A stretch of 64,000 nucleotides of DNA from Bacteroidota bacterium (GTDB lineage: Bacteria > Bacteroidota > Bacteroidia > Chitinophagales > Saprospiraceae): the NCBI GenBank assembly GCA_018222965.1, contig JAAEZH010000002.1:1-64000 (forward strand). The letters run 5' to 3'. Positions 32,102 to 39,490 of the stretch are shown one piece after another; position 1 is the stretch's first letter; every line of letters begins with the position of its first letter. The position numbers and the translations under genes were made by a program. The notes below the pieces were generated by a model, which was not told the DNA's origin, did not search any database, and was given only the letters and a program-made list of their open reading frames with translations.

Positions 32102-33235
32102 ATGCGCCCAATTCTAAGCCTACTACTGATCAGCCTTTTCATACTTCCCGGATGTGAAGAAACTCCTGTGGTTATGGATGATGATAATCCGGTCATGGGA
32201 GACCTGGAGCATATAGCCTATGAGCCAATGCCCTATGACCTTCAGATTCCGGATTTCTTTCCCGAGATGATCATCCCGGAAGAAAATCCTTTGACAGTGG
32301 ATGGCGTAGAATTGGGCCGTTTTTTATTCTACGATCCAATTCTTTCCCTGGATAGTACACAGTCCTGTGCCTCCTGTCACCTGGTTGAGGGAGCATTTAC
32401 AGATAACCTGGCCGTGAGTTTTGGAGTTCAGGGATTGCCTGGAAAACGGAGCTCAATGTCTTTGCTCAATGTAGGGTATTACTACAACGGCTTATTTTGG
32501 GACGGTCGTTCGCCCAATCTGGAAGAGCAGGCTTTGCACCCGATTGAGGATCCCCTGGAAATGGATAACACCTGGGAAGTTGTAATTGACCGACTGCAAA
32601 ACCACGAAATTTATCCGGAAATGTTTCGGAAAGCTTTTGGCATCAAAGATCGGGAAGATATTGATCGGGATTTGGCGACAAAAGCCATCGCTTCATTTGA
32701 GCGAACACTTATTTCCGGGGGGAATTCAAAATACGATCGCAAGTTTCTCGCACAAGAGCCTGGTGTACCATTTACTGTGTCTGAATTCAGAGGTCGGGAC
32801 ATGTTCTTTGACGAATCGGAGGAAGGCTTACCCGATGCCCAGTGTTTCCATTGTCACGGCGGGGTTCTCCTTACGGTGAATGACTACCGCAATAATGGAT
32901 TGCAGGAAGTGGATGACCTGAATGATTTTGAAGATTTTGGATTGGGGGCCGTAACCGGAAAACTCATCGACAATGGGAAGTTTCGGGCTCCAACACTTCG
33001 AAATATTGCGCTAACGGCGCCCTATATGCATGATGGAAGTATCGAAACGCTGGAAGAAGTAATTGACTTCTACAATGAAGGCGTTCACTATGCAGACAAT
33101 TTGGATGAGAATCTGGTCATTCAGCCGCTCGGTTTGGATGAAGAGATGAAAGCCGATTTGCTGGCCTTTTTGCATACCCTTACGGATACGACATTTTTGT
33201 CAAATCCGGCTTATCAAAACCCCTTTGAAGAATAA
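32102..33235 (+). CDS. MbnH/MauG-like diheme cytochrome c peroxidase family enzyme 1
   Basis: A 377-residue lipoprotein (MRPILSLLLISLFILPGC) with two heme c sites: CASCH (residues 89-93) and CFHCH (248-252). The PF03150-type core GLFWDGRSPNLEEQALHPIEDPLEM and the KFRAPTLRNIALTAPYMHDGS segment are clear. The family includes bacterial diheme peroxidases, MauG (which oxidises tryptophan in methylamine dehydrogenase) and MbnH (which turns a MbnP Trp into kynurenine). Placing it directly after an MbnP-like gene makes an MbnH-type role the best guess. The next gene begins in its stop codon (TAATG). Confidence 0.85.
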   Translation: MRPILSLLLISLFILPGCEETPVVMDDDNPVMGDLEHIAYEPMPYDLQIPDFFPEMIIPEENPLTVDGVELGRFLFYDPILSLDSTQSCASCHLVEGAFTDNLAVSFGVQGLPGKRSSMSLLNVGYYYNGLFWDGRSPNLEEQALHPIEDPLEMDNTWEVVIDRLQNHEIYPEMFRKAFGIKDREDIDRDLATKAIASFERTLISGGNSKYDRKFLAQEPGVPFTVSEFRGRDMFFDESEEGLPDAQCFHCHGGVLLTVNDYRNNGLQEVDDLNDFEDFGLGAVTGKLIDNGKFRAPTLRNIALTAPYMHDGSIETLEEVIDFYNEGVHYADNLDENLVIQPLGLDEEMKADLLAFLHTLTDTTFLSNPAYQNPFEE

Positions 33236-34374
33236 TGATGGAATTTTGGCGGTGTTGCAAAAAGGGCGCAGTTATCATCAGCTCATTACTGATGCTGCTT
33301 GTGATTTTTGCCGCTTGTGAAGAGCCTGATCCGCCGGCATTCGGGGAAGACCTGAGTTCCTTTCCCTACAATCCTCAGGCTTATTCTATTGAAGTTCCCC
33401 AACACTTTAACCCGGTACCGGTTCCGGCAAACAATCCCATGACGACAGACGGGGTAGCATTGGGACGGTATTTATTTTACGATCCCATCTTATCTGTAGA
33501 TAGTACGATTTCCTGTGCGAGTTGCCACAAACAAGCATTTGCCTTTTCCGATAATAGCGCTTTGAGTATCGGCGTTGGAGATACTGAAGGAATTCGAAAT
33601 TCTATGTCACTGGCCAATGTTGGATTCTATGACGATGGCCTTTTCTGGGATGGCAGGGTAGGGACACTGGAGGAACAATCTTTGCATCCGATAGAAGATC
33701 CGCTGGAAATGAAGGACACCTGGAGCAATGTAGAGGACAAATTGAGGAGACACCCGGATTATCAGAAACGCTTTAGGGCTGCCTTCGGCATTGAGAATTC
33801 AAATGAAATTACGCGTGATCTTGTCACCAAAGCACTCGCTCAATTTGAACGTACACTTATTAGCGGTACTGCAAAGTATGATTTTTCAGAATTTGACTGG
33901 GGGCAGGATCAGCAGTTTTTTTCTTCTGCTGAATTGCGAGGTCGTAATCTTTTCTTTGACGAACCTTCTGATCCTAATGCCCCCCACCCGGGTTGCTCCC
34001 ATTGCCATACATCCGTTTTATTGACTACTAATGAATATTCTAACAATGGGCTGGATGAAGCTCCGGAGCTAACAGAATTTGATGATAAGGGCAGGGGAGC
34101 CGTTACCGGATACCTGATTGACAATGGAAAATTTCGGGTACCTACACTCCGAAATGTGGAGTTGACAGCCCCCTATATGCACGATGGACGCTTCGAGACG
34201 CTGGAAGAAGTGTTGGATCATTACAGTTCTGGTGGCCATTATGCTCCTAATCTTGATGCAAATATTACCGCATTTCCACTCACAGCCGAACAAAAATCCG
34301 ACCTGCTGGCTTTCCTAAAAACAATGACTGATACCGATTTTGTAGAAAATCCTGCTTTTTCTTCCCCTTTTTAA
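33235..34374 (+). CDS. MbnH/MauG-like diheme cytochrome c peroxidase family enzyme 2
   Basis: A 379-residue paralogue of the preceding enzyme. A basic, Cys-containing head (MMEFWRCCKK) precedes the signal helix ending IFAAC, a likely lipobox. Heme sites are CASCH (94-98) and CSHCH (254-258). The same blocks recur: GLFWDGRVGTLEEQSLHPIEDPLEM and KFRVPTLRNVELTAPYMHDGR. It starts at the last base of the previous stop (1-bp overlap), so the pair is translationally coupled. A start at 33238 would remove only one Met. Whether the two enzymes each serve one of the MbnP-like proteins is unknown. Confidence 0.85.
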   Translation: MMEFWRCCKKGAVIISSLLMLLVIFAACEEPDPPAFGEDLSSFPYNPQAYSIEVPQHFNPVPVPANNPMTTDGVALGRYLFYDPILSVDSTISCASCHKQAFAFSDNSALSIGVGDTEGIRNSMSLANVGFYDDGLFWDGRVGTLEEQSLHPIEDPLEMKDTWSNVEDKLRRHPDYQKRFRAAFGIENSNEITRDLVTKALAQFERTLISGTAKYDFSEFDWGQDQQFFSSAELRGRNLFFDEPSDPNAPHPGCSHCHTSVLLTTNEYSNNGLDEAPELTEFDDKGRGAVTGYLIDNGKFRVPTLRNVELTAPYMHDGRFETLEEVLDHYSSGGHYAPNLDANITAFPLTAEQKSDLLAFLKTMTDTDFVENPAFSSPF

Positions 34375-34555
34375 GGGAATAAAAAGCATATTAATTTTAA
34401 ATTTTTTTCACAAAATTTACTGAAAAACCCTTTCAGTTAAGGAGTTGTCGATTATTTTTTCTCACAATTGGTCGTTTTTGTACTTGTAACGACATGAAAA
34501 ACTCCCGATAATTGTATCATCAATCGTTGACAAGACAACGAGCTTTCAAATTTGG

Positions 34556-34575
34556 ATATGTTCATGGGATTATAA
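34556..34575 (+). repeat. 20-bp direct repeat with five-codon ORF, copy 1
   Basis: ATATGTTCATGGGATTATAA. It contains ATG TTC ATG GGA TTA TAA, a full ORF for MFMGL. A hairpin with G-T pairs and a T tract follows within 3 bases. Confidence 0.8.
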
Positions 34576-34577
34576 AT

Positions 34578-34616
34578 CCGTCAACAGTAGGAACTCCTGC
34601 TGTTGGCGGGGTTTTT
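34578..34616 (+). terminator. Terminator-like hairpin after repeat copy 1
   Basis: CCGTCAACAGTAGG and CCTGCTGTTGGCGG form a 14-bp stem with two G-T pairs, AACT loop, then GGTTTTT. It does not follow a protein-coding gene directly (the nearest ends at 34374), so it may end a small RNA or act as an attenuator. Confidence 0.65.
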
Positions 34617-34674
34617 AAAAAGCGTCAGGGGAAATTTCGCTTTTTGAAAATCAGATCTCCGCTGATTAAGATAT

Positions 34675-34694
34675 ATATGTTCATGGGATTATAA
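34675..34694 (+). repeat. 20-bp direct repeat with five-codon ORF, copy 2
   Basis: ATATGTTCATGGGATTATAA, identical to the copy 119 bp upstream, again with the MFMGL frame and again followed, 15 bp later, by a hairpin and T tract. Confidence 0.8.
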
Positions 34695-34709
34695 TTTGTT
34701 AATGGTGGT

Positions 34710-34741
34710 CGCGCTGAATTCTCAGCGCGGCTTTCTTTTTT
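34710..34741 (+). terminator. Terminator-like hairpin after repeat copy 2
   Basis: CGCGCTGA-ATTC-TCAGCGCG (perfect 8-bp stem) followed by GCTTTCTTTTTTT. It is unrelated in sequence to the hairpin after copy 1. Confidence 0.8.
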
Positions 34742-35011
34742 TAGGGAAGGCCCATTTTATTTGCTTCATTTACCCCATCTTGTTTTTTTCTGAAATTTTA
34801 TTAAATTAAGTAACAGGAAATTTTATCCTTCATCGCCTTTATTTGGCTACATATTCCTATTTTTACCAAACTCCAGGAGAATAAGCATACCCCTTCTATT
34901 CTTGCTTCTCCATTCAACATCTAGCCCTTATATTAAATCTGGCAATAGTTACCTTCCTATTGACCAAGACTCAAATGGTATCGCTCCGTTTGGCAATTAA
35001 CTAATTAACAA

Positions 35012-38000
35012 ATGACCATGAACAAAAACCTTTTACACACGGCACTGCTTTTATTTTGTTCTTTCAATCTGTTTGCTCAATTTGAGTTAAACTTTAATGG
35101 AATGCCTCCTGCTTGTAACGGCGGGTCAAATGGCTTCATTACTGTTTTGCCGGAGGGTGGTACTCCTCCCTACAGCTATCAGTGGAACACAGGTGCCAAT
35201 ACACAACAAATTTCAAATGTCGTTGCAGGTACCTACCTGGTTACGGTAACAGATGATACAGATGTCTCCGTAAGTGGTATGTACATGCTGATCGATAATC
35301 CGGTATTAGAGGTCACCGCATCCGCATTGGATTCCTGTAATACGCCCACAACGCTTTATGCCACTCCTTCCGGAGGTTCAGCGCCTTACTTTTTTCAATG
35401 GTCTGGCGGGCCAACCGGTGATACCCTGAATAATGTGCCTCCCGGCATGTATTGCGTTACCCTCACAGATGATAACCTCTGTACTGTTACCGATTGCATC
35501 ACCATCGCAAATGAGCTTGAAGTAGATCTGGACTACCAGCAAATCAGTTGTGCTAATATCTGTGATGGCTATATTCTGGCATTGCCTTCCGGCGGTACGC
35601 CTCCTTATACTTATTTGTGGAATGAAGGTTTTACAGATCCACTCGTTGAGTACCTGCACCCGGGCTTATATACCGTTACGGTAACAGATGCCAATGGTTG
35701 TATGAATTCAGCCAGTGTAGACATTTTTGCTCCCCCGGAAATTGAAATAGACATCAACGCGCCAATACTTCCCTGTGGAGCCGGAAGTGTTGGTACGGCA
35801 ACCGCAATTATATCAGGTGGTGTCCCGCCTTATTCTTTCCAGTGGAGCAACGGGCAATCTGATCTCACTGCTACAGGTCTTACTCCTGGAGAAACGTATA
35901 CTTTAACGGTTGTCGATGCCAACTTCTGTCTGGCAAATGCACAGGTGACCATTGAAACGGAAACAGATATTGCAGTTGCTGTATTTACTACAGACGCGGT
36001 TTGTGGTTCGCCAATGGGAGGTTCTGCCTTTGCCATGGCTACCGACGGAACACCTCCTTATACTTTTGACTGGAGCAACGGGGGTTCCGGAATCTCCATC
36101 ACCAATCTGGAAGCCGGTGAGTACACAGTAACCGTAACAGATCTGAATGGATGTATTGGAGTCGCTTCCGGTATTGTAGAAGATGCGCCGGCCAATATTG
36201 ATCTTAGCTTTACTTATGAATATGCCACTGCTTGCGATGCAAACGATGGAGCTATCATTGTATCTGCAGTAGGCGGGACCCCGCCATACACTTACCTCTG
36301 GGATAATGGGATAACCTCAGATACTCTCGATGGCATTAACTCCGGCATTTACTTTGTCACAGTCACCGATTCGAATGATTGTCCGGTAACCGGATTTGCC
36401 GAACTGACCAATGATAACCTGTTGGCAGTAGAAATTATCGCAGCAGGCAATTGCGAAGGCGACAATACCCTTTCGGCGGAAGCCCCTTCAGGCATGCCAC
36501 CGCTCCAGTATGAATGGAGCACTGGTGATAATACAATGACCCTGGAAGATGTAGCCTCCGGAACATACAGTGTAACGGTGGAAGATGCATCTGGTTGCAT
36601 TGGTGTGGATACCATCGACCTCGACCTGGATCCCCTGCCGGAAATAGAAGTGCAGGGCTTCAATACCAATTGCTTTGGCGAGGACGAAGGAGCAGTGGAA
36701 GTGACCACACCCGTACCTGCCAGTGATTATGGCATACTCTGGAATACAGGAGATACGACAGCTCTTGTTGAAAATCTGGAACCTGGTGATTATTCCGTTA
36801 TCGTGACTAACATTCTAACGGGTTGTTTTGCAACAGATACAGTAGCCCTGTCTGAACCAGACAGTCTGTATGCTTTGATGACAGGTGTGGATCTCCTTTG
36901 CAATGGAGATAGTACCGGGTCTGTTCAAATCGAAGCATTTGGAGGTACTCCTCCTTATGTTTTGCTAATCAATGGAACCGATGTTTCTGCAACTGGCGGT
37001 TTGTCTGATTTGCCTTCCGGCGAATATATCGGCGAGGTAATTGATGACAATGGCTGTATAGCAAATACGCTGATTACTCTGGAAGAACCAGATTCTCTGG
37101 ATATTAATTTGATTCCGGATACGCCCAATTGTGAAGCCGGACAGGACGGATCCATCACCGCTGAAGTGATGGGGGGCACGCCTCCTTATAGCTATTCTTG
37201 GAATACAGGAGATTCCGACGATACCGTGGAAGGCTTAATGGCGGGCACTTATAGTGTAACCATTACAGATGCCAATGATTGTGAAGCGGTTGCAAGTATT
37301 GACCTGCCAGATGGTATTTCTCCCAATGTTACAATTATCACAAATTCTCCTACTTGTAACGGGGATTCGGATGGCAGCTTGTTTGCCATGGCCAGTGGCG
37401 GAAATGCACCTTATACCTTCGAATGGTCCAATGGCGTTTCCGGACAATCAAACCCGGATATTCCAGCCGGAATTTATTCGGTTACAGTTACAGATGCCAA
37501 TAATTGTGAAGTGGTCGAAATGGTAGAGCTTTCTGCCCCGGATGCTATTGAGATCAATATAATGGTGGATGTACAACCCTGTGAAGATATTGCCGGCGGA
37601 CAAGTCAGTGCAACGGTAAGCGGTGGTATGCCGGATTATTCCTACCTCTGGTCCAACGGAGAAACAACACCGGTAATCACGGATTTAATGGCTGGTACAT
37701 ACTATCTGACAGTAACAGATGTAAATGGATGTGAGGCAATTGATTCTGTAGACCTCGAAGCGCTCCCCGGCCTTACAATAGAAATTGAAGCACTGAGTCC
37801 AACCTGTCTGGAAGGCAGTACCGGACAAGCACAGGTAACGGCTACGGGTGGATCTGGAAACTATAGTTATTTATGGAGCAATGGGGAAACCACGGAGGTG
37901 GCCGTATCCCTTCCAGCGGGTACATCTTCTGTTACTGTAACAGATGCAAATGGCTGTACCGGTGAAGGAAGCGTTGAAATAGAGGAAGAAGAAGATCCGC

Positions 38001-39490
38001 TCGATTGCCTGGCGTATATAATAATGCCTATATCGACGGTGGATGGAAGCGACGGTGCTGTTGCGGTAGAAGATCCAATGGATCAACCAGGACCATTTTC
38101 TTACGAATGGAATAACGGAGAAACCACACAGGTGATTTCTGGCTTGCCAGCCGGTATTTATGAGGTAACGGTAACGGATGATTCTACAGGATGTATATCT
38201 GTTTGCGCTGTCGAACTGATCAATCCGGCTAAAATTGGAGACTTCGTTTGGGATGATTTGGATCATAATGGTCAGCAGGATGCCGGCGAACCTGGTGTTG
38301 AATCCGTAAAAGTAACCCTTACAGGTACCGACATTAATGGCGATATGGTTGAATTGACCATGACGACGGATATTAACGGATCCTTCCTTTTTGATGGCCT
38401 CTTACCAGGCGTTTACAGCCTGGAATTCACCAGTTTGCCTTCCGATTATGAATTTACAATTCCAACCGTTGGTGATCCGGAAATAGATAGCGATGTGATT
38501 TTTGGAGATGGTGGAACCGCTATGATAGTCCTTAATCCAGGCGATTGCAGGCTGGATATAGATGCAGGGATTTACATTGAATGTATCAACTTCACGGATC
38601 CCGGAGTGATCGAAGGCGATGAATACTTATGTGGCCCGGGCAATGATCCTGGTCCGATAACGGAAGTAATACCCCCTTCTGGCGGGGTAGGAGCCATCGA
38701 ATATCTCTGGATGATGTCTACCGTGAATGGTCCTTTTGATCCCGATACCTGGATTCCTATTCCGAATTCCAATACACCGAATTACGATCCTGGGGTTATT
38801 TATCAGACGACCTATTATGCGCGCTGTGTTCGCCGGGAAGATTGTACCAACTATCTGGAGTCTAACATTATTGTTAAAGAAGTTGGAACAGAAGCAGTAG
38901 CTCACATTACCGACCCGGGTACAGTTTGTGTCAATGATGCAACGCTGATCCAGGGCTTTAACAATGGACCGGGAGCACAATACAGCTGGGACTTTGGCAA
39001 TGATGCAACGCCGGCAACCTCCACATCCCCAAGTGCAGTGGTAACCTGGAGTAGCTTTGGATTAAAAACAATCCATTTGACAGTCCAGAACAATGATTGT
39101 ATTTCTCAGGTTTCACTGGATATTTATGTATCCAACAGTCCGCTTATTTGTCCTTCTAACGTTTCGGATTCTCCAATTGGTACCATCTTCCCGGGTGGGC
39201 CGATTACTGATGAACCGGAAGAACGAGAATTATCTGCCACAGAGGTTTTCAGAGGTGTTAACCTCTATCCGAATCCGGCAAAAGAAGTTTGTTGGCTTTC
39301 GCGTGAAAATGCTTCCACGGAGTGGACTGTGACGCTTACTGATCTATACGGACGACAGTTGAAGCTCACTAACTGGCCTGCGCAAACGGAAAAACTCCAA
39401 TTGGATCTAAACGGTCTAAATAATGGTGTCTTTCTGTTAACTATTAAAGATGCTTATGGAAGGCAGACAAGTCTTCGGTTGATCCGTTAG
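35012..39490 (+). CDS. Giant SprB-repeat adhesin with SdrD-B, PKD and T9SS type A sorting domain (paralogue B)
   Basis: A 1492-residue secreted surface protein with the same order of domains as 15310-19791. Signal peptide MTMNKNLLHTALLLFCSFNLFAQ (ATG 35012 or the internal ATG at 35018). About fourteen SprB repeats (30-1068), each ending VTVTDANGC or a variant. Then SdrD-B-like DDLDHNGQQDAGEPG (from about 1071), an Ig-like domain with VRREDCTNYLESNIIVK, a PKD-like domain with YSWDFGNDATPATST (about 1296-1372), and the type A sorting domain (from about 1415: LYPNPAKE, LTDLYGRQLKL, GVFLLTIKD). Like SprB it probably acts in surface adhesion or gliding, but no SprC/SprD/SprF partner lies next to it. 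A terminator follows at 39514. Confidence 0.92.
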   Translation: MTMNKNLLHTALLLFCSFNLFAQFELNFNGMPPACNGGSNGFITVLPEGGTPPYSYQWNTGANTQQISNVVAGTYLVTVTDDTDVSVSGMYMLIDNPVLEVTASALDSCNTPTTLYATPSGGSAPYFFQWSGGPTGDTLNNVPPGMYCVTLTDDNLCTVTDCITIANELEVDLDYQQISCANICDGYILALPSGGTPPYTYLWNEGFTDPLVEYLHPGLYTVTVTDANGCMNSASVDIFAPPEIEIDINAPILPCGAGSVGTATAIISGGVPPYSFQWSNGQSDLTATGLTPGETYTLTVVDANFCLANAQVTIETETDIAVAVFTTDAVCGSPMGGSAFAMATDGTPPYTFDWSNGGSGISITNLEAGEYTVTVTDLNGCIGVASGIVEDAPANIDLSFTYEYATACDANDGAIIVSAVGGTPPYTYLWDNGITSDTLDGINSGIYFVTVTDSNDCPVTGFAELTNDNLLAVEIIAAGNCEGDNTLSAEAPSGMPPLQYEWSTGDNTMTLEDVASGTYSVTVEDASGCIGVDTIDLDLDPLPEIEVQGFNTNCFGEDEGAVEVTTPVPASDYGILWNTGDTTALVENLEPGDYSVIVTNILTGCFATDTVALSEPDSLYALMTGVDLLCNGDSTGSVQIEAFGGTPPYVLLINGTDVSATGGLSDLPSGEYIGEVIDDNGCIANTLITLEEPDSLDINLIPDTPNCEAGQDGSITAEVMGGTPPYSYSWNTGDSDDTVEGLMAGTYSVTITDANDCEAVASIDLPDGISPNVTIITNSPTCNGDSDGSLFAMASGGNAPYTFEWSNGVSGQSNPDIPAGIYSVTVTDANNCEVVEMVELSAPDAIEINIMVDVQPCEDIAGGQVSATVSGGMPDYSYLWSNGETTPVITDLMAGTYYLTVTDVNGCEAIDSVDLEALPGLTIEIEALSPTCLEGSTGQAQVTATGGSGNYSYLWSNGETTEVAVSLPAGTSSVTVTDANGCTGEGSVEIEEEEDPLDCLAYIIMPISTVDGSDGAVAVEDPMDQPGPFSYEWNNGETTQVISGLPAGIYEVTVTDDSTGCISVCAVELINPAKIGDFVWDDLDHNGQQDAGEPGVESVKVTLTGTDINGDMVELTMTTDINGSFLFDGLLPGVYSLEFTSLPSDYEFTIPTVGDPEIDSDVIFGDGGTAMIVLNPGDCRLDIDAGIYIECINFTDPGVIEGDEYLCGPGNDPGPITEVIPPSGGVGAIEYLWMMSTVNGPFDPDTWIPIPNSNTPNYDPGVIYQTTYYARCVRREDCTNYLESNIIVKEVGTEAVAHITDPGTVCVNDATLIQGFNNGPGAQYSWDFGNDATPATSTSPSAVVTWSSFGLKTIHLTVQNNDCISQVSLDIYVSNSPLICPSNVSDSPIGTIFPGGPITDEPEERELSATEVFRGVNLYPNPAKEVCWLSRENASTEWTVTLTDLYGRQLKLTNWPAQTEKLQLDLNGLNNGVFLLTIKDAYGRQTSLRLIR

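Follow-up and report, generated by a model that had tools for sequence, protein, structure and literature searches.

The window, by which we mean the whole stretch of 64,000 nucleotides analysed here, contains a 637-bp intergenic gap (34375-35011) in which two exact copies of the 20-mer ATATGTTCATGGGATTATAA lie at 34556-34575 and 34675-34694, with a start-to-start spacing of 119 bp. The sequence-only reading that drew attention to this gap had placed it ahead of a SprB adhesin, and both its size and its neighbour were borne out: Pfam models identify nine SprB repeats (1.7e-83) and a Por_Secre_tail domain (2.1e-21) in the downstream product. The product of the upstream gene matches the NCBIfam profile TIGR04039 at 1.2e-83, yet falls under the cut-off of that profile. 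The duplication is real. Allowing three mismatches, the window has no further copy (0.02 expected by chance per window), and none of the shuffled windows contained two matches at this tolerance. Copy 1 runs into a 15-bp stem (34577-34610) followed by TTTTT, and copy 2 into an 11-bp stem (34707-34732) followed by a T-rich tail. Both hairpins fold far below shuffled sequences (z = -6.3 and -3.6, respectively), in agreement with the terminator-like hairpins that had been proposed behind each copy, and the letters ATG TTC ATG GGA TTA TAA are readable in both. The conserved core of copy 2 runs past 20 nt, to about 34705. The features of the locus are listed in Table 1; the inverted repeat between the two units is possibly a weak bidirectional terminator.

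Table 1. Features of the small-RNA locus and its neighbours in the window.
Feature	Position	Strand	Basis
MbnH/MauG-like di-heme protein gene, conserved upstream neighbour of the array	33235..34374	+	ORF, NCBIfam profile, relatives
Putative upstream promoter box TTTTTCTCACAA, family consensus TTTTTTCACAA	34456..34467	+	common to first units of many arrays
-33-like element TTTGTACTTG, family consensus TTTGTCTTTG	34477..34486	+	first-unit alignment, motif search
-7-like block GATAATTGTATCAT, family consensus CATATTTGTATCGTGA	34507..34520	+	first-unit alignment, motif search
5′ hairpin of unit 1, TCGTTG-ACAAGA-CAACGA	34524..34541	+	fold; hairpin enrichment here across copies
Unit 1 seed, short form, antisense to UUAUAAUCCC-AUG-AAC	34556..34575	+	repeat and family alignment
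Unit 1 terminator-like hairpin and T run	34577..34616	+	fold
8-bp inverted repeat AAAAAGCG...CGCTTTTT between units	34617..34645	+	sequence
5′ hairpin of unit 2, AATCAG-ATCTCCG-CTGATT	34649..34667	+	fold
Unit 2 full seed ATATGTTCATGGGATTATAATTTGTTAATGG	34675..34705	+	core model R1 match, conserved columns
Unit 2 terminator hairpin and T-rich tail	34707..34741	+	fold; family trend for last units
Predicted target site TTAACAAATGACCATGAAC at the sprB-like start	35005..35023	+	target-pattern search, duplex -20.3 kcal/mol
SprB-repeat adhesin gene with T9SS sorting tail	35018..39490 (ORF may begin 35012)	+	Pfam

A search for the 20-mer in the rest of the genome and in relatives, which the sequence-only reading had proposed, returned copies in both. 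The genome itself (5.48 Mb) holds about six more copies on three other contigs (C96, C56 and C67), with three units inside about 250 nt on C96. A sequence-only core model gave eight matches with E < 1e-4 on four contigs, the E-values being rough for a home-made model; the seed of unit 2 is the genome's second-best match of core model R1 (38.9 bits). Three-mismatch matches on C61, C84 and C105 were without the unit architecture and were dropped. Searched with a tolerance of three mismatches in 398 genomes of the order, TTCATGGGATTATAATTTGTTAA occurs in 104, nearly all of them in the window's own family, where roughly 90-93 of the 132 sampled genomes carry the element; matches outside that family are rare and mostly have three mismatches. 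Named records with the exact 24-mer belong to Saprospiraceae/Saprospirales, Lewinellaceae, Phaeodactylibacter and Flavilitoribacter, and include the cultured Phaeodactylibacter xiamenensis and Flavilitoribacter nigricans DSM 23189; the remainder are MAGs labelled just Bacteroidota or Chitinophagales. Tandem arrays are usual, with at least two units in 54 of 79 loci and a spacing of mostly 90-350 nt. The shuffles and the recurrence in relatives rule out a chance repeat as the origin of the element.

No Rfam family reaches its cut-off on these RNAs. The proposed covariance search of the region did produce alignments to Rfam models, all of them below the gathering score, and the matches to the L20 leader, RNase P, PyrR and similar families are sub-threshold alignments. 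An earlier description of the RNAs was not found in the literature searched, where FopS/GibS and LhrC were the sole close systems. Judging from their sequences, the copies would form a multicopy family of base-pairing small RNAs across Saprospiraceae that is apparently undescribed. A variant unit, TTAGGTCGTCTTATTATTTCATGAGATTATGATTTGTTATTAGCGAGAGGC with a terminator, recurs in about ten species (L102-L108 and similar) and is near identical upstream of the core; it is a vertically conserved orthologue. An Rfam match to the Bacteroidales small SRP RNA near one family locus (L361:831-935) is ordinary.

Throughout the family, a unit consists of a variable 5′ hairpin, an unstructured seed (consensus UUCAUGGGAUUAUAAUUUGUUAA) and a terminator-type hairpin, in this order. 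Across 162 distinct copies, conservation rises from about -6, is near total at TTCATGGGATTATA, continues through AATTTGTTAA and then stops; the copies were collected through the core, so that conservation of the core is partly due to selection, but its edges do carry information. Compared with its shuffles, the seed has less structure (mean z +0.6), and the segment 3′ of it forms a strong hairpin (mean z -4.8). The segment from -45 to -5 of the seed holds hairpins of variable sequence, with a mean MFE of -6.0 versus -4.0 farther upstream (Wilcoxon 1.6e-6). Singly, the 5′ hairpins of the window are ordinary (z = -1.3 for 34524-34541 and 0.0 for 34649-34667), and their support therefore comes from the family trend. 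A clear terminator is present in the last units of about 92 of 100 arrays, versus about 33 for first units.

Many first units share the arrangement TTTTTTCACAA - TTTGTCTTTG - about 20 nt - CATATTTGTATCGTGA, located mostly 60-110 nt 5′ of the seed. When an equal stretch is scored, 24 of 57 first units have the -7 block, as opposed to none of 64 later units (Fisher 5.5e-10). The combined motif has three matches in 1.28 Mb of the own genome, each heading a family array, the window's included, and in the window it occurs only upstream of copy 1. This motif is like the Bacteroidota promoter, which has TTTG near -33 and TAnnTTTG near -7 (PMC7366714), plus one extra box. The family consensus TTTGTCTTTG - about 20 nt - CATATTTG agrees with the latter at 7/8 positions of the -7 element; the window copy GATAATTG is weaker, and its promoter is a predicted one. 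Transcription would start at about 34520-34525, just 3′ of the TTTGTATCGTGA block. A scan with a sigma-70 model, the wrong promoter type for the phylum, gave no clear excess. The idea that the repeats are duplicate promoters had to be abandoned, as the elements lie only 5′ of first-unit hairpins and the flanks of the repeat show no conserved promoter-like sequence. With a promoter at first units and a terminator mainly at last units, the arrays look like single multi-seed transcription units; internal termination is possible at some of them, the window locus among them.

The order mbnH – small RNAs – sprB-like gene recurs in relatives. An mbnH homologue lies upstream on the same strand at about 28 of their loci, and at about 17 the array is directly upstream of a SprB-like gene, also on the same strand; related genomes and overlapping loci make these counts non-independent. 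The reverse complement of the seed reads CCATTAACAAATTATAATCCC-ATG-AAC, i.e. a translation start, and sprB-like starts in relatives often keep the complement (CTAACAAATTTTAATCCA-ATG, CTAACAAATTATACATCC..ATG, CTAACAAATTATTAATCC..ATG). Duplexes of -16 to -21 kcal/mol are predicted at about half of these starts, and weak pairing of about -13 kcal/mol at the others. For the window, the predicted sprB duplex of unit 2, which has the full seed, is made of the blocks UUAACAAAU and CCAUGAAC separated by a gap (-20.3 kcal/mol); unit 1, with its short seed, would pair mainly through CCAUGAAC (-14.8 kcal/mol). Two core matches in antisense in relatives (L113, L117) are likewise the starts of secreted proteins.

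Over the whole genome, the pattern TTAACAAATN{0,20}ATGAA occurs outside the small RNAs in only three places, all of them gene starts: those of the sprB-like neighbour (35005, UUAACAAAUGACCAUGAAC), of a T9SS-tailed cadherin/Big_9 protein of 1981 residues on C87, and of an HYR protein of 4040 residues on C25. Pairing was also scored over 1.28 of the 5.48 Mb, with starts called mechanically, where the duplex of seed and start reaches -20 kcal/mol or below in 12 of 859 genes, compared with 4.4 +- 2.0 for seeds in which the letters outside TATGTTCATG were permuted; none of 44 shuffles reached 12. At this level, 17 start sites were found versus 2 internal ATGs. Further predicted targets include T9SS cargo, a PorP/SprF protein and a LuxR-type response regulator. 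Signal peptides are not significantly enriched among the best 12 predicted targets, and over the order the strict target pattern, which is too strict, gave no clear distinction between the family and outgroups. The response regulator (L099:1334-1984, on C67) has the second-best predicted seed pairing at its start (-25.4 kcal/mol) and is possibly a regulator within the circuit.

In 26 unit clusters, mostly away from sprB-like genes, one unit has its terminator on the opposite strand only, and in 20 of the 26 this unit is internal, usually between two seed units. The strict terminator test used here fires in 3% of random segments, and a few of the 26 clusters resemble ordinary seed units. The best anti-seed units consist of TTAACAAATTGTAATCT, about 14-20 nt, TAATCCCATGAACATGACC, a hairpin and a T run, and are predicted to pair with the seed at -23 to -30 kcal/mol. 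Upstream of 13 of 20 anti-seed units there is a TAnnTT(T/C/G)(G/C) box; 20% of control stretches have one. The own genome has this form in the middle unit on C96 (L012:6577, C96:110573) and in a divergent unit on C56 (L001:1371, C56:42536), and relatives have it at L165, L172, L175, L176, L177, L199, L200, L311, L312, L314 and L338; the window array contains no anti-seed unit. By their complementarity to the seeds, these opposite-strand units are candidate sponge RNAs.

We consider it likely that the window locus encodes tandem trans-acting small RNAs whose seeds are antisense to adhesin start regions and block translation. Tandem small RNAs had been among the readings first offered, and this one is supported: in its favour are conservation as a multicopy family, a promoter dedicated to the arrays, a seed free of structure and hairpins of the terminator type. 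What the DNA itself shows is the family, its architecture, the position of the promoter, the complementarity and the synteny. One promoter (34456-34520) would produce an RNA starting near 34520; if internal ends leak, transcripts of about 95 and 220 nt would result. Exposed between two hairpins, the seed would pair via UUCAUGGG with mRNAs of large adhesins exported by the T9SS, covering their start codon and the 5′ UTR (...UUAACAAAUUAUAAUCCC-AUG-AAC...); the adjacent sprB-like mRNA would be the first target, and ribosome entry would be blocked. By analogy, an initiation block is the most likely mode, being that shown experimentally for FopS and GibS in Bacteroides. Transcription, repression and any part played by an RNA chaperone are our inference.

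The closest system by seed sequence and logic is FopS, a group of paralogous sRNAs of Bacteroides thetaiotaomicron (Rfam RF04319) that pair with translation starts and are bound by the RRM-1 protein RbpB (PMC11697453). FopS probably works alike: it is multicopy, its seed consensus UUCAUGGUAUUAGAU..GUUAAU resembles UUCAUGGGAUUAUAAUUUGUUAAU of the window family, the several paralogous copies per genome have their counterpart in the eight core-model matches, and in both cases the seed is complementary to the start-codon region of its targets, as far as can be predicted here. The RF04319 model, however, scores only 19.7-23.1 bits (19.7 at 34677-34741) against a gathering cut-off of 56, with best matches of 18-25 bits in the whole own genome, and the window RNAs are therefore not classed as FopS. 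The seed is unstructured and followed by a terminator here, but an extra hairpin lies 5′ of it, the units stand in tandem behind one promoter, and an anti-seed unit on the opposite strand is part of some arrays. FopS targets susC-type transporter genes of PULs; the top predicted targets here are adhesins, PorP/SprF and a response regulator. The genome encodes two short RRM_1 proteins of the RbpB type with Gly/Arg-rich tails (L142, C78:15679; L143, C36:95928). GibS, another Bacteroides sRNA, pairs with translation-initiation regions through a conserved single-stranded 5′ seed (PMC7366714), as is predicted for the window family, but is single copy, with a PM2 promoter, two seeds and middle hairpins, and tandem arrays are not reported for it (PMC7366714). 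LhrC1-5 of Listeria monocytogenes are multicopy RNAs of ~110 nt that block translation of the surface adhesin LapB (PMC4132741). They share with the window family the multiplicity, the order of stem-loop, single-stranded stretch and terminator, and the (here predicted) adhesin target. They are unrelated in sequence, bind Hfq, belong to a Gram-positive host and direct CU-rich UCCC motifs, absent from the window-family seed, against the Shine-Dalgarno site.

An alternative that we regard as unlikely is a cis-acting leader: the promoter would serve chiefly sprB itself, whose 5′ UTR of roughly 500 nt would contain the hairpins as attenuators, with the seeds closing the sprB start in cis. It would account for the same-strand arrays directly before sprB-like genes at about 17 loci, for the complementarity of the sprB start to the seed and for the missing clear T run in the first-unit hairpin of many arrays. 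However, the C56 and C96 arrays of the own genome have the same promoter and no downstream adhesin, a strong terminator closes unit 2, and neither an alternative antiterminator nor a conserved leader peptide was found. The double attenuator of sprB suggested at the outset is conceivable with read-through at the window locus, but leaves arrays without a downstream adhesin unexplained. Attenuators of the leader-peptide class were rejected, as MFMGL is poorly kept, with non-synonymous variants, and arrays occur elsewhere.

Less probable still is titration of a protein by the single-stranded motif of the RNAs, an RRM protein being one candidate; the likeness to start regions would then be secondary. 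The motif is indeed near invariant, single-stranded and multicopy, RRM_1 proteins are encoded in the genome and RbpB binds FopS, but the anti-AUG match, the enrichment at starts and the opposite-strand anti-seed units would remain unexplained. Translated five-codon leader peptides are very improbable. The MFMGL frame is whole in both window copies and an inner three-codon ORF is kept in 141 of 162 copies; however, the first ATG is present in 116 and missing in 46 of the 162, the exact peptide is found in 94, the common variant GGA>AGA alters the amino acid, some copies are without a stop, and conservation runs beyond the stop into TTTGTTAA. The five-codon ORF pointed out earlier is not supported as coding; antisense pairing to CCC-AUG-AAC accounts for its letters. 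Equally improbable is mobile or repeated extragenic DNA without RNA function, such as a spreading terminator cassette, which would fit multiple tandem copies but not hairpins that differ while the single-stranded seed stays conserved, synteny kept over many genera, or a shared promoter only at array heads.

Extending the reading of trans-acting small RNAs to the whole family, we tentatively propose, with rather more doubt than confidence, an RNA switch of Saprospiraceae. Co-regulated multi-seed RNAs would silence T9SS adhesin mRNAs, an opposite-strand sponge within many arrays, mimicking a start (UUAACAAAUUGUAAUCU...UAAUCCCAUGAACAUGACC and terminator), would absorb the seeds, and the window locus would be the adhesin-linked, sponge-free form. 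If anti-seed units are sponges, regulator and antidote are joined in one small locus. Post-transcriptional control is little charted in Bacteroidota beyond gut Bacteroides, and a co-regulated multicopy family with predictable anti-start-codon targets offers a handle on how giant adhesins and T9SS cargo might be controlled in surface-attached Saprospiraceae. Such a family would point either to an ancient origin of FopS-like anti-AUG regulation in the phylum or to its repeated evolution.

Anti-seeds also occur in other settings. TAATCCCATGAAC is found at L008:1134 and L008:1583 (C67:42136 and C67:42585), where it shares its strand with two seed units and has a terminator after each copy; the first copy starts 4 nt past a stop codon and may therefore be a 3′-UTR decoy. 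Near-exact anti-seeds lie directly after stop codons and just before terminators at C46:17770 (L045), C14:57704 (L040) and C21:35856 (L041), and these are possible 3′-UTR decoys as well.
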